Shown here one piece after another: positions 48,774 to 57,890 of a DNA stretch of 64,000 nt. The position numbers were made by a program, and so were the translations under genes. Each line of letters opens with the position of its first letter. The first letter of the stretch is position 1. Below the pieces are notes generated by a model. The model was not told where the DNA came from. It saw only the letters and a list, made by a program, of their open reading frames with translations, and ran no database searches. This DNA is from Halorubrum sp. CBA1229 (GTDB lineage Archaea; Halobacteriota; Halobacteria; Halobacteriales; Haloferacaceae): assembly GCF_003721435.2 (NCBI RefSeq), contig NZ_CP054585.1:930001-994000 (forward strand), given 5' to 3'.

Positions 48774-49418
48774 GTGCGGTCGATCAACTTCGAGAACGCC
48801 TTCTACGCGGACGACGGCGACTGGATCGAGTCGCTGCTCGTCGCGTCAGCGTCGCCGTTCGACCCCGAAGCGGCGTTGGCGGACCTCTCTCGCGTCGAAC
48901 TGTTCCACTGCGAGCAGGTGGTGGACGGATCGACGGAGCCGACCTATCGGCTGACCGTCGTCGCACACGAACCCTACCCGTTCCTCCTCGGCGTCGTGCT
49001 GCGTGAGAACGCGATCCCGAACCGGTTGGAGTTCCTGAACGGTCACCTCCGCGGAGTCGTCACGGTCACCGAGTGGGAGTCGTTCCGGACGCTCGCGGAC
49101 AGGATCCAGGAGCAGTTCGGCGAGTTCGAGCTCCTGAGCGTGAACCAGGTCGAGACGACCGGCGAACCGCTCGGAAGCGGACAGCTCGGACGAGCCCTGC
49201 GGAACGAGCTCTCGCCCGAACAGCTGACCGTGCTGCGGACCGCCCATCGGATGGGGTACTTCGACGCGCCGCGGCGAGTGTCGGCGGACGAGATCGCCGC
49301 CGAGCTCGACATCGCGCAGTCGACGCTCAGCGAGCGGCTGCGACTCGCAGAGAAGCGGCTGTTCGATCTCGTCTTCTCCGTCCCCGACGAGTCGTCGACC
49401 GACGCCGCCGACAGATAG
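48774..49418 (+). CDS. HTH-10 (bacterioopsin-activator type) regulator, start uncertain
   Basis: The protein, at least 214 residues, has the C-terminal HTH-10 domain: 'LSPEQLTVLRTAHRMGYFDA' then 'PRRVSADEIAAELDIAQSTL' and 'SERLRLAEKRLFDLVFSV'. The N-terminal domain is beta-rich like other bat-type regulators. The first possible standard start is GTG at 48774. But family-like coding continues upstream in the same frame to an in-frame TGA at 48696, reading ILRIEFRTSLSGVIGEIAER-VPDV, with no ATG, GTG or TTG; the typical beginning of such proteins falls there. A non-standard start (ATC or ATT) or a mutated start is possible. It is upstream of the binding-protein operon and is its likely regulator. 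Confidence 0.78.
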   Translation: MRSINFENAFYADDGDWIESLLVASASPFDPEAALADLSRVELFHCEQVVDGSTEPTYRLTVVAHEPYPFLLGVVLRENAIPNRLEFLNGHLRGVVTVTEWESFRTLADRIQEQFGEFELLSVNQVETTGEPLGSGQLGRALRNELSPEQLTVLRTAHRMGYFDAPRRVSADEIAAELDIAQSTLSERLRLAEKRLFDLVFSVPDESSTDAADR

Positions 49419-49512: not shown

Positions 49513-49534
49513 TAATAAAGAATGATGAATATTG
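49513..49534 (+). promoter_or_regulatory. 22-base conserved promoter motif of the binding-protein operon
   Basis: The motif TAATAAAG-A-ATGATGAATATTG ends 51 bases before the ATG of the solute-binding protein. A copy differing by one base lies at 57869-57890 on the minus strand before the acyl-CoA synthetase gene with 48 bases to its ATG. The AT-rich part may be the TATA region with an operator overlapping it. Confidence 0.6.
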
Positions 49535-49585: not shown

Positions 49586-51547
49586 ATGTCGCAAGACAAG
49601 AGCTTCGAGATCGAGACAGGCACGAAATCACGGCGGCGGTTCATCCAGATCGCCGGCGCGGCCGGGATGGCGGGGATAGCCGGCTGTGGCGGTGACGGCG
49701 GCGACGGCGGCGACGGCGGCGACGGCAGTGACGGGAGCGACGGCAGCGACGGCAGCGACGGCGGAGGCGGCGGCGCGGCGTCGATCGAGACGCAGTTCTG
49801 GGAGGAGTGGCCGGTCGAGTCGAAGGGGTCCGACGTCAACGACGAGGCGATCCAGTTCGAGTACACCGCGGTCGAGGGGGAGACCGTCCCCCAGGTGGAC
49901 ACCCACTTCGCGCAGGCCGAGACCCCGTGGATGCGGGAGTTCGCGCTCCTCGTCCAGCAGTCGATGAACGACATCGGCGTCGGCGTCAACCTGATCAACG
50001 TCCAGCCGAGCACCCGGTACGGGGAGTTCTGGCGGGCCGACATCGGGCATCCGGTGCCGATAACGATGAACCTCCACGGGCCGGACCCACAGCGCGGGCT
50101 CGACCCGAACCCGTTCCTGATGCGGGCGCACCCGGAGACGGGCGGGAACTACTACAACTACAAGAACGACGAGGTCACGGAGCTGTTAGACGAGCAGGCG
50201 TCGACGATCGGCGACACGGAGGCGCGCGCCGAGATCTGCCACGAGATCCAGCGCAAACTCAACGAGGACGCCTACCTCATCGCGGCGAACTTCCCGGAGG
50301 TCATCACGGTGGCCAACACCGCCGACTGGGAGGGGTACGTGCCGACCCCCGGCAACGGGACCACGCGCGACTCGTTCATCTGGACGCAGGTCAACCTCCA
50401 GCCGCAGGGCGACTCGACGACCTGGGTGAAGGGGGTCACCTCGGGGATGCAGGGGACGAACCTCCCGTTCTCCAGCGGCGGTCAGGAGGAGAAACGGCTC
50501 CTGAACGTCTACGACGGGCTCTTCGACGCCTCGCCGCAGCTCGAGATCGTCCCCGCCCTGGCGACGAACGCCGACGTCGTCGACGACACCACCGTCGAGA
50601 TGGACCTCAGAGAGGGCGTCGAGTGGCACGACGGCGAGTCGTTCGGCCCGAGCGACGTGAAGTTCAGCGTCGAGTTCTACAAGGAGCACAACGCGCCCCA
50701 GCAGGCCGCATTCATCCGGACGATCGACTCCGTGGAGGTGCTCTCGGAGACCGGCGGCGGCCGCGTCCGGTTCAACCTCACGGAGCCGGACGCCGCGTTC
50801 CTTACCCAGCGGGTCGTCCGCAGCGCCATCATCCCCGAGCACCGCTGGTCGGACGTCGACAGCCCGAGCGAGTACAACCCCGAGAACCCGGTCGGGACCG
50901 GGCCGTTCTCGTTCGTCAACTGGGAGCAGGGGGCGGAGCTCCGCTTAGAAAAGCACGAGAACAACTGGATGTGGGACGACGACGTCCGCGAGGAGCTGCT
51001 CGGGGAGTACTTCGTCCCCGGCGACGGGATCGACGAGATGGTCCACGCCAACGTCGGGAACGTCTCCACGCTCATCGGCGCGATGCAGTCCGGCGACATC
51101 GACGCCATCGGGACGACGGTCTCGAACGCGCAGGCCGACCGCGCGGCGAACCCGAGCGGCGTCGAGAAGCAGACGTCGCGGAACTACGTCCCCACGGACG
51201 TCCACCTCAGTCACCTCGTCCCGCTGTTCCGGGACAAGACGTTCCGCGTGGCGCTGTCGCACGCCTTCGACAAGGAGGGGTTCGTCGAGAACACGCTCGG
51301 CGGTCGCGGCGAGGCGATCGAGGGGCAGAACCTGATCACGCCGCTTTTGACCCCCTACCACGGCGAGACCGAGCCGTACGAGTACGACGTCGACGCCGCT
51401 CGAACGATGCTCCAAGAGGCCGGGTACACGTTCGACGGCGACGACAACCTCGTCTGGCCGGAGGGCGACGCGTGGGACGCCTTCGCCGAGCGCGTCGAGA
51501 ACGGGCACGCGTCCCGCGCTGACCTCGACCAGCCGGACTTCTCGTAG
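49586..51547 (+). CDS. ABC transporter solute-binding protein, family 5, circularly permuted block order
   Basis: The 653-residue lipoprotein has a Tat signal (SRRRFIQIAGAAGMAGIAG) and lipobox cysteine C34, then a Gly/Asp/Ser linker to about 63. The family-5 (peptide/nickel-type) blocks are all present but out of order. Residues about 113-265 hold what is usually the end of the protein: 'EFALLVQQSMNDIGVGVNLI', 'NYYNYKNDEVTELLDEQAS', 'EICHEIQRKLNEDAYLIAAN'. Residues from about 305 hold the usual beginning, 'LNVYDGLFDASPQLEIVPAL' and 'VEMDLREGVEWHDGESFGP', then 'NPVGTGPFSFVNWEQGAEL', 'FRVALSHAFDKEGFVENTL' and 'YEYDVDAARTMLQEAGYTF' close to the C-terminus. It heads an operon with two permeases and a fused ATPase. 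Confidence 0.88.
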   Translation: MSQDKSFEIETGTKSRRRFIQIAGAAGMAGIAGCGGDGGDGGDGGDGSDGSDGSDGSDGGGGGAASIETQFWEEWPVESKGSDVNDEAIQFEYTAVEGETVPQVDTHFAQAETPWMREFALLVQQSMNDIGVGVNLINVQPSTRYGEFWRADIGHPVPITMNLHGPDPQRGLDPNPFLMRAHPETGGNYYNYKNDEVTELLDEQASTIGDTEARAEICHEIQRKLNEDAYLIAANFPEVITVANTADWEGYVPTPGNGTTRDSFIWTQVNLQPQGDSTTWVKGVTSGMQGTNLPFSSGGQEEKRLLNVYDGLFDASPQLEIVPALATNADVVDDTTVEMDLREGVEWHDGESFGPSDVKFSVEFYKEHNAPQQAAFIRTIDSVEVLSETGGGRVRFNLTEPDAAFLTQRVVRSAIIPEHRWSDVDSPSEYNPENPVGTGPFSFVNWEQGAELRLEKHENNWMWDDDVREELLGEYFVPGDGIDEMVHANVGNVSTLIGAMQSGDIDAIGTTVSNAQADRAANPSGVEKQTSRNYVPTDVHLSHLVPLFRDKTFRVALSHAFDKEGFVENTLGGRGEAIEGQNLITPLLTPYHGETEPYEYDVDAARTMLQEAGYTFDGDDNLVWPEGDAWDAFAERVENGHASRADLDQPDFS

Positions 51548-55642: not shown

Positions 55643-57820
55643 TCACTCGCTCGTCCGGACCAGCGCGTCGACGGCCAGGGGGCCGTCGGGCGTGACGACG
55701 ACCGGGTTGAGGTCGAGCTCGGCGACCGCGTCGACCGAGGCCGCCAAGTTCCCGACGTTCACGAGCAGGTCGACGACCGCGTCGACAGAGAGCGGCGCGT
55801 CCCCGCGCCGGTCGGTCAGCAGGTCCGCGAGCGCCGTGGCCTCGACAGCGCGGCGCGCGTCGGCGCGCGAGAACGGTGGGACGAGCGTCGCGGTCTCGTC
55901 GAGCGCCTCCACGAGGACGCCGCCGGGCCCGACCGTGACCAGCGAGTCGAACACGTCGCCGGAGGCGACGCCGAGGATCGCCTCGACGCCGTCGCCGGCC
56001 ATCGGCTGGACGAGCACGCCGGCCACGTCGGCCGCGTCGACGCGCGCCAGCGCGGCGTCCGTCACGTCGTCGTACGCCTCCCGGACCGCCGCGGCCGAAT
56101 CGAGGCCGAGCTCGACCGCGCCGGCGTCGGTCCGGTGCGGGAGCGCCGGCGAGTCGACCTTACAGACGACCGGAAAACCGATATCGCGGGCGGCCGCGAC
56201 GGCCTCGTCGGCGTCCGTCGCCACCCGGGTCTCGACGACGGGGACGTCGTAGGCGTCGAGGAGCGGCTCGGTCTCCCGCCACGTCAACACGCGTCCCCGG
56301 GGGAGCTCCGAGTCGGGCGCGTCGACGCCGCCCTGCGCTTCGAGGGCGCTCGCGAGGGCGGCCCTGGACGGCCGGTCGGCCAGCCGGTCGCGGTCGGCGG
56401 CGTACTCGGCGGTCGAGGCGACCGCGTCCAGACAGCGTCCCGGGTCCTCGTACACCGGCACGGACTCCCGCAGGCGGGCGTACGGCGGCGTCGCCGTCGG
56501 GTCGTCCGGCTCCTTCCGCCCGGTCCAGAGGACGTACACCGGGTCGTCGGCCTCGGCGGCGATCGCCTCGAGGTCCGCGGCGATCGTCTCCGCGCGCTCG
56601 TCGACGCCGGGCAGCCCGATCGCGAACACGTAGACGTCGAAGGCGTCGTCGGCCAGCACCGCGTCGGCGATCTCGGGGAGCACCTCCGCGCCGTACCCCC
56701 GGATGTCGGCGGGGTTGTTGAACCCGCCGTACGTCAGGAGCTCCTCGATCCCGAGCAGCGTCCGCTCGGTCTCGCCGTCGATGGCCGGCAGCGACAGGCC
56801 GCGCTCGGCGGCCATGTCCGCGAGCAGGCTCGCGAGGCCCCCGCTGGTCGAGGCGACGCACACCCGGTCGCCGTCGGGCGTCCCGTACGCGGCGTGCGCG
56901 CTCGCTCGCGAGAGCAGATCCGGAACGTCCGGGACCCGCTGGACCCCCGTTTGGTCGAAGGCCGCGTCCCACGCGTCGTCGCGCCCGGTGAGCGATCCCG
57001 TGTGCGACAGCGTGGCCGCCTCCGCGAGGTCCGACCGGCCGACCTTCACCGTCAGCACCGGCGTCCCGTTTCGGACCGCGCGCTCGGCGACGCGCATGAA
57101 CCGCTCCGGCTCGTCGATCCCCTCGACGTAGGTGCACACCACGTCGACGGTCTCCCGCTCCGCGAGGTACGCCACGTAGTCCGTCAGCGTCAGGTCGGCC
57201 TCGTTGCCCGTCGAGACGATGTGGCTGAAGTGGAGGTCGCGGTCGGCCGCCCGCTCGAAGAAGGTCGTGAACGCCAGCGCGCCGGACTGGCTAACGAGCC
57301 CGATCCGGCCCGGTTCGGGCTCGCGCGAACACGTCGAGGTGAGCGTCGCGCCGCGCGAGTTCATCACGCCGATGCAGTTCGGCCCGACGACGCGGATCCC
57401 GGCGTCGGCGGCGGTCGCGGCCAGCCGCGCCTCGAGTTCCGCTCCCTCGTCGTCGGCCTCCGAGAACCCGGCGGAGAGCACGAGCGCGACCGGGACCCCC
57501 CGCTCGCCGGCCGCGGCGACGACGTCGACGACGTACTCCCGCGGGACGCTCACGACGGCCAGATCGACGGTTTCGGGCACGTCGGCGACGCGGTCGTAAC
57601 ACCGGCGGCCCCACACCTCCTCTCGGTTCGGGTTGACAGGGTACAGGTCGCCGTCGAACCCGTAGTCGAGGAGGTTGTTCACGAGGTTGCCCGAGTAAAA
57701 CGAGTCGGGGCTGGCTCCCACGACCGCCACCGACTCCGGATCGAAGAGCGGATCCAGGTCCGGCACGGCGGGCGTCGCGTCGGCGCTCGACTTGACGACC
57801 GAGGCGTCGTCTCCTGACAT
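55643..57820 (-). CDS. ADP-forming acyl-CoA synthetase (acetate-CoA ligase family), second copy
   Basis: The 725-residue protein has the same fused plan as the acd gene at 19963-22077. It starts 'LDPLFDPESVAVVGASPDSF'; the phospho-histidine is in 'EAATLSHTGSLTGRDDAWD', and the ATP-grasp half begins about 510 with 'TEPLLDAYDVPVVETRVATD' and has the second histidine in 'SPALPHRTDAGAVELGLDS'. It differs clearly from acd, so its acid substrate probably differs. It makes acyl-CoA from an acid, or ATP from acyl-CoA. The ATG at 57820 is chosen; the frame is open 51 bases further. It shares its divergent promoter region with the enolase-superfamily enzyme and a motif with the binding-protein operon. 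Confidence 0.9.
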   Translation of the reverse strand: MSGDDASVVKSSADATPAVPDLDPLFDPESVAVVGASPDSFYSGNLVNNLLDYGFDGDLYPVNPNREEVWGRRCYDRVADVPETVDLAVVSVPREYVVDVVAAAGERGVPVALVLSAGFSEADDEGAELEARLAATAADAGIRVVGPNCIGVMNSRGATLTSTCSREPEPGRIGLVSQSGALAFTTFFERAADRDLHFSHIVSTGNEADLTLTDYVAYLAERETVDVVCTYVEGIDEPERFMRVAERAVRNGTPVLTVKVGRSDLAEAATLSHTGSLTGRDDAWDAAFDQTGVQRVPDVPDLLSRASAHAAYGTPDGDRVCVASTSGGLASLLADMAAERGLSLPAIDGETERTLLGIEELLTYGGFNNPADIRGYGAEVLPEIADAVLADDAFDVYVFAIGLPGVDERAETIAADLEAIAAEADDPVYVLWTGRKEPDDPTATPPYARLRESVPVYEDPGRCLDAVASTAEYAADRDRLADRPSRAALASALEAQGGVDAPDSELPRGRVLTWRETEPLLDAYDVPVVETRVATDADEAVAAARDIGFPVVCKVDSPALPHRTDAGAVELGLDSAAAVREAYDDVTDAALARVDAADVAGVLVQPMAGDGVEAILGVASGDVFDSLVTVGPGGVLVEALDETATLVPPFSRADARRAVEATALADLLTDRRGDAPLSVDAVVDLLVNVGNLAASVDAVAELDLNPVVVTPDGPLAVDALVRTSE

Positions 57821-57868
57821 GCACGTCGATCCCACGGGAATCCGCCTGAACCTGTTCCCGAACGCCCC

Positions 57869-57890
57869 CAATATTCATCATCCTTTATTA
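57869..57890 (-). promoter_or_regulatory. Second copy of the 22-base promoter motif, in the divergent gap
   Basis: On the minus strand the gap reads TAATAAAG-G-ATGATGAATATTG, one base different from 49513-49534. It has the same orientation and spacing relative to the acyl-CoA synthetase ATG (48 bases) as the other copy has to its gene (51 bases). Read on the plus strand it ends 29 bases before the enolase-superfamily gene start, where it could also serve that gene. Confidence 0.6.

Follow-up and report, generated by a model that had tools for sequence, protein, structure and literature searches.

The archaeal gene listed first in Table 1 encodes a 653-residue solute-binding protein of family 5 (PF00496) whose two modules are arranged in circularly permuted order, the C-terminal third of the canonical chain preceding its normal start. 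The gene lies in the window, a 64,000-nucleotide stretch of Halorubrum sp. CBA1229 (NZ_CP054585.1, positions 930,001 to 994,000 of the forward strand). It leads a DppBC-DppDF operon, so its product very probably works as an ordinary Venus-flytrap receptor of an ABC importer, with a lipid anchor inferred to be attached through lobe 2 instead of lobe 1. The same kind of rotation is found in other archaea and in bacteria, and trees and AU tests indicate that it arose at least four, and probably five, separate times. Overall, the reading of this protein as a circularly permuted Dpp/Opp-type receptor is held at a probability of about 0.9, although neither an experimental structure nor binding data support it yet.

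Module order of the binding protein

The open reading frame starts at an ATG. An in-frame TTG is present at position 49532, but close homologues start at the same Met. The protein scores 178.5 bits against PF00496, for which the curated cut-off is 32.4, and no other Pfam family was matched with E values up to 10. The SBP_bac_5 profile matches residues 320-620 with its positions 1-284 of 368 (E 2.7e-52), whereas the segment of residues 85-285, searched alone, gives a weak match to profile positions 288-328, the C-terminal part. A phmmer search against the PDB aligned residues 318-615 to positions 55-337 of the Listeria CtaP structure (5isu) and residues 117-241 to positions 354-472, in reversed order. 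When a profile of 30 homologues was aligned to Bacillus subtilis AppA (1xoc), profile positions 241-570 corresponded to AppA 18-351 (i-E 2e-65) and positions 73-228 to AppA 360-508 (i-E 7e-15). Module HMMs found each module only once, the C module at residues 106-256 and the N module at residues 274-629 (671-aa numbering minus 18). The C-module model also hits the C-terminus of canonical proteins, down to E 4e-29. Nothing is duplicated and almost nothing is lost: the chain is cut at AppA ~352-359 and the old ends are joined.

These results support the original prediction, which had proposed a permutation and not a duplication, with the C-lobe end at residues of about 113-265 and the canonical start from about 305. 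Its residue ranges are right to within about 10-30 residues, and the leading segment is indeed homologous to the family-5 C-lobe. The prediction had also placed the lipid anchor on the other lobe, which follows by mapping but is inferred, not measured. In E. coli YejA, lobe 1 consists of residues 1-286 plus 540-579 and lobe 2 of residues 287-539, and the N- and C-termini of oligopeptide-binding proteins are described as close together (PMC10924461). The cut lies in lobe 2, and only a short bridge was needed in lobe 1. The wide distribution of the architecture and its repeated origin go beyond the original prediction.

Table 1. Location of the permuted gene, its parts, its neighbours and related loci. 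Positions without a prefix are those of the window; L numbers label collected loci, G numbers genomes and C numbers contigs.
Location	Strand	Feature	Basis
49586..51547	+	Permuted family-5 solute-binding lipoprotein, 653 aa	Profile and module searches; co-linear homologues
49586..49687	+	Tat signal with lipobox (SRRRFIQIAGAAGMAGIAGC, Cys34)	Sequence (SRRRF...IAGC); RR and AGC nearly invariant in the homologues
49688..49900	+	Gly/Asp/Ser linker and family-specific lead-in	Sequence; low pLDDT at the very start of the mature model
49901..50353	+	C module, the C-terminal third of a canonical family-5 protein, here first	E 7e-59 to module HMM; alignment to AppA and 5isu
50354..50404	+	Junction joining the old C-terminus to the old N-terminus	Lies between the module matches; alignment of homologues
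50405..51472	+	N module, canonical start to the EAG helix and hairpin (AppA 18-351), here last	Pfam, AppA alignment, module HMM, model comparison
51473..51544	+	Helical C-terminal tail after the new cut (AWDAFAERVENGHASRADLDQPDFS)	Conserved in close homologues; helix 544-555 of the mature model
48774..49418	+	BAT/HTH_10 transcription regulator directly upstream	PF15915, PF04967
51565..52548	+	DppB-type permease	PF00528, PF19300
52548..53468	+	DppC-type permease	PF00528, PF12911
53465..55570	+	Fused DppD-DppF ATPase, 701 aa, two ABC domains each with an oligo_HPY region	PF00005 x2, PF08352 x2
55643..57871	-	ADP-forming acyl-CoA ligase type gene next to the importer operon	
C1:1246117-1247997 of the same genome (L006 661-2556, L057 9661-11556)		Second permuted family-5 lipoprotein, 631 aa	
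L134 5001-6563	-	Permuted DppA-like protein of Archaeoglobus fulgidus	
L133 3983-5554		Permuted DppA-like protein of a relative of A. fulgidus	
L135 3983-5548		Permuted DppA-like protein of a relative of A. fulgidus	
L058 5821-7563 (genome G450)	-	Permuted protein with a plain signal peptide and a PGF-CTERM-like tail (KTPGFGVIAVIAGVMAATYLLRRRR)	
G164, C5:154975-156589		P3-type permuted gene, apparently split into two neighbouring open frames at the module boundary	Query 1-205 and 219-547

Distribution in archaea and bacteria

In the same genome, two of the six family-5 loci are permuted, namely the gene of the window and a remote paralogue. No ABC permease or ATPase gene was visible beside this paralogue, and the linker between its C and N modules is Asp/Thr/Gly-rich like a lipoprotein linker, as if it were a remnant of a second gene copy. 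Of 292 Halobacteria genomes, 52 (this one included) hold a full-length co-linear relative at 40% identity or more, and many others hold more distant ones at about 30%. Named relatives include records of Halorubrum (the nearest, 87-95% identical), Halobellus, Haloarcula, Haladaptatus and Halomarina, as well as complete plasmids of Halobaculum and Halobacterium. The order is far beyond chance and conserved in many species.

Permuted relatives were also found in bacteria, within the subset of phyla sampled. In 299 genomes of the phylum of Ruminiclostridium (Bacillota), the profile found full-span hits in several. One of them is on a contig of 3,165,557 bases, the length given for Natranaerobius thermophilus NC_010718 (PMC5405348). 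In contrast, a hit in Ruminiclostridium papyrosolvens that looked permuted is canonical. In alphaproteobacterial plasmids, three proteins were checked by module HMM and are permuted. Automated annotation passes over the rotated order: the permuted plasmid copies whose annotation was read are called only "ABC transporter substrate-binding protein", Pfam covers about half of the window protein, and the NCBIfam models all match only part of it, far under cut-off.

Predicted fold and genetic context

AlphaFold2, run on the mature protein with 30 homologues, gave a confident full-length model (pLDDT 91.2, pTM 0.90). Residues 190-540 of this model match AppA 18-355 (Z 23.6, rmsd 4.3, 328 residues). 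As both Foldseek and VIA-align are sequential, and VIA-align covered only model residues ~190-540, these comparisons do not test the packing of the C module, which rests on model confidence and homology. The leading segment predicted alone folds poorly (pLDDT 64, pTM 0.43), as expected if it packs into the rest of its chain. Its structural matches are weak (best Z 7.9), although most of the top-ranked ones are the C-terminal parts of family-5 proteins, and little weight is given to them.

The gene is followed by two permease genes and a fused ATPase gene (Table 1). The same receptor-permease-permease-ATPase order is found in Halobacterium hubeiense, Nitratireductor and Roseomonas (with two ATPase genes), while in Maritalea an ATPase gene stands between receptor and permeases. 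An acetate-CoA ligase family gene also lies near the permuted operon of H. hubeiense, which, together with the acyl-CoA ligase type gene of the window, may hint at substrate use. The simplest reading is an ordinary importer receptor. The folded protein is inferred to be the usual two-lobed Venus flytrap, in which substrate closes the lobes and the closed form docks on DppB/DppC.

Repeated origin of the permutation

Module HMMs applied to the collected loci gave 63 C-first and 16 N-first ORFs, and 92 and 46, respectively, in the enlarged set, in which some loci repeat a gene. On trees of re-rotated sequences, the permuted proteins fall in five separate lineages: P1+P2, the large clan of the window protein with its bacterial members; P3, a haloarchaeal group among canonical proteins; L078, from a non-haloarchaeal genome of the same phylum (G450); L079-L081, from one genus group (the Archaeoglobus group); and P5, in Bacillota. 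The permuted architecture is an old, widely inherited one in the clan of the window protein (Halobacteria, Bacillota, Alphaproteobacteria). A single clade of all permuted rows of the first careful tree was rejected by the AU test (p 2e-6), as were P3+P1 (6e-4), L078 with L079-L081 (9e-9), P5+P1 (0.002), P5+L078 (0.004) and L078+P1 (1e-5). One origin of P3 was not rejected (p 0.107), although canonical proteins nest inside this group (L118, L120, L121, L122 versus L117, L098, L124), which could be a reversion to canonical order or repeated permutation at one site. Since the groups were named after seeing the trees, the p-values are indicative, and the pairs P3 with P5 and the Archaeoglobus group with P5 were not compared. 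At least four origins are taken as well supported and five as likely.

The closest canonical relatives are 84-86% identical for the Archaeoglobus group, up to 58% (N) and 50% (C) for P5, and 43-48% over the N module for P3. The Archaeoglobus case is the youngest. L080 lies on a contig of 2,178,400 bases, the genome length of Archaeoglobus fulgidus DSM 4304 (PMC4712552). L079 (P) and the canonical L087 (K), from the same genus group, are 85.8% identical over P199-514 = K33-348 and 84.7% over P29-191 = K353-515, with similar signal peptides, and at the DNA level the two blocks match at about 77-81% in swapped order. The canonical copies lie in other gene surroundings, and in the permuted genomes the gene stands divergently from dppBCDF-like genes, as read from the protein starts, so more than the gene was rearranged. 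Tandem duplication of the gene followed by loss of the outer parts, probably the usual route for circular permutation, is the most likely origin and fits the retained signal peptide, but no intermediate was found.

In L087 numbering, the cut falls at about 352, after the EAG helix, in P1, P2, L078, the Archaeoglobus group and P5, while in P3 it falls at 332-340, before the same helix. One helix in lobe 2 is thus flanked by all observed cuts. It could be speculated that one surface loop in lobe 2 is a hot spot where permutations are repeatedly fixed by selection, because moving the termini and the anchor to lobe 2 changes how the receptor is tethered, closes or docks on its permease, and that the permuted forms are a functional class ("Cluster Cc") spanning archaea and bacteria and not a neutral oddity. 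This idea is not excluded but remains rather unlikely. Tethering cannot be the whole story, as several permuted bacterial proteins (L155, L156, L169, L177, L178, L180) show, by eye, a signal peptide without a visible lipobox, and in the G450 protein the likely anchor is at the new C-terminus.

Alternative explanations

A rearranged contig can be ruled out for practical purposes, given the co-linear homologues in independent genomes and on complete plasmids and the distant permuted paralogue in the same genome; nothing was found in its favour. A domain-swapped dimer, in which the leading C module pairs with the N module of a second molecule, is unlikely but not excluded. An origin by tandem duplication could pass through such forms, and the leading segment does not fold well alone in prediction. 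However, the single-chain prediction is confident throughout, and in the youngest case the junction is only a few residues (RYYLVYSEEQKDTITIG) between termini that lie next to each other in the fold (PMC10924461).

It is also very improbable that all permuted proteins descend from one permutation, with the canonical relatives inside the tree being reversions or tree error. Most lineages do share one cut loop, the branch parting the main permuted clan from the rest is weak when bacterial rows are added (79/82), and one origin of P3 is not rejected. Against this stand the AU test of one clade, the high identity of the Archaeoglobus group to a canonical protein of the same genus group and the different cut of P3.

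Comparison with known binding proteins

Family 5 is one of the main families of ABC importer receptors. Repeated permutation at one loop, including a case with a close canonical sister, is a rare natural series for studying how circular permutations arise and are kept. It also provides ready-made permuted scaffolds and a natural test of whether it matters which lobe of a binding protein is tethered. No permuted protein of this family was found described in the literature searched, which was mainly open-access.

The protein is homologous over both modules to the DppA/OppA/AppA-type proteins (PF00496; cluster C) and shares their lipoprotein receptor role, as inferred from sequence, and their Dpp/Opp operon partners. 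It differs from them in the rotated order of the two modules, in the fused old termini, and in the new termini and anchor, which map to the lobe-2 loop after the EAG helix. A natural circular permutation is known for TpMglB-2 (Tp0684) of Treponema pallidum, proposed as "Type Ic / Cluster Bc" (PMC4990184), which still binds ligand and changes conformation, and whose authors also raise tethering as a possible reason. TpMglB-2, however, belongs to a different family and fold class (sugar-binding cluster B, type I), and the top PDB matches of the window protein are family-5 type proteins. Moreover, one family was described there, whereas several independent lineages are seen here in cluster C, some of them not lipoproteins. 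Permutation and duplication have also been considered as routes in binding-protein evolution in work on halves of another family, while the present cases are whole natural proteins in operons.
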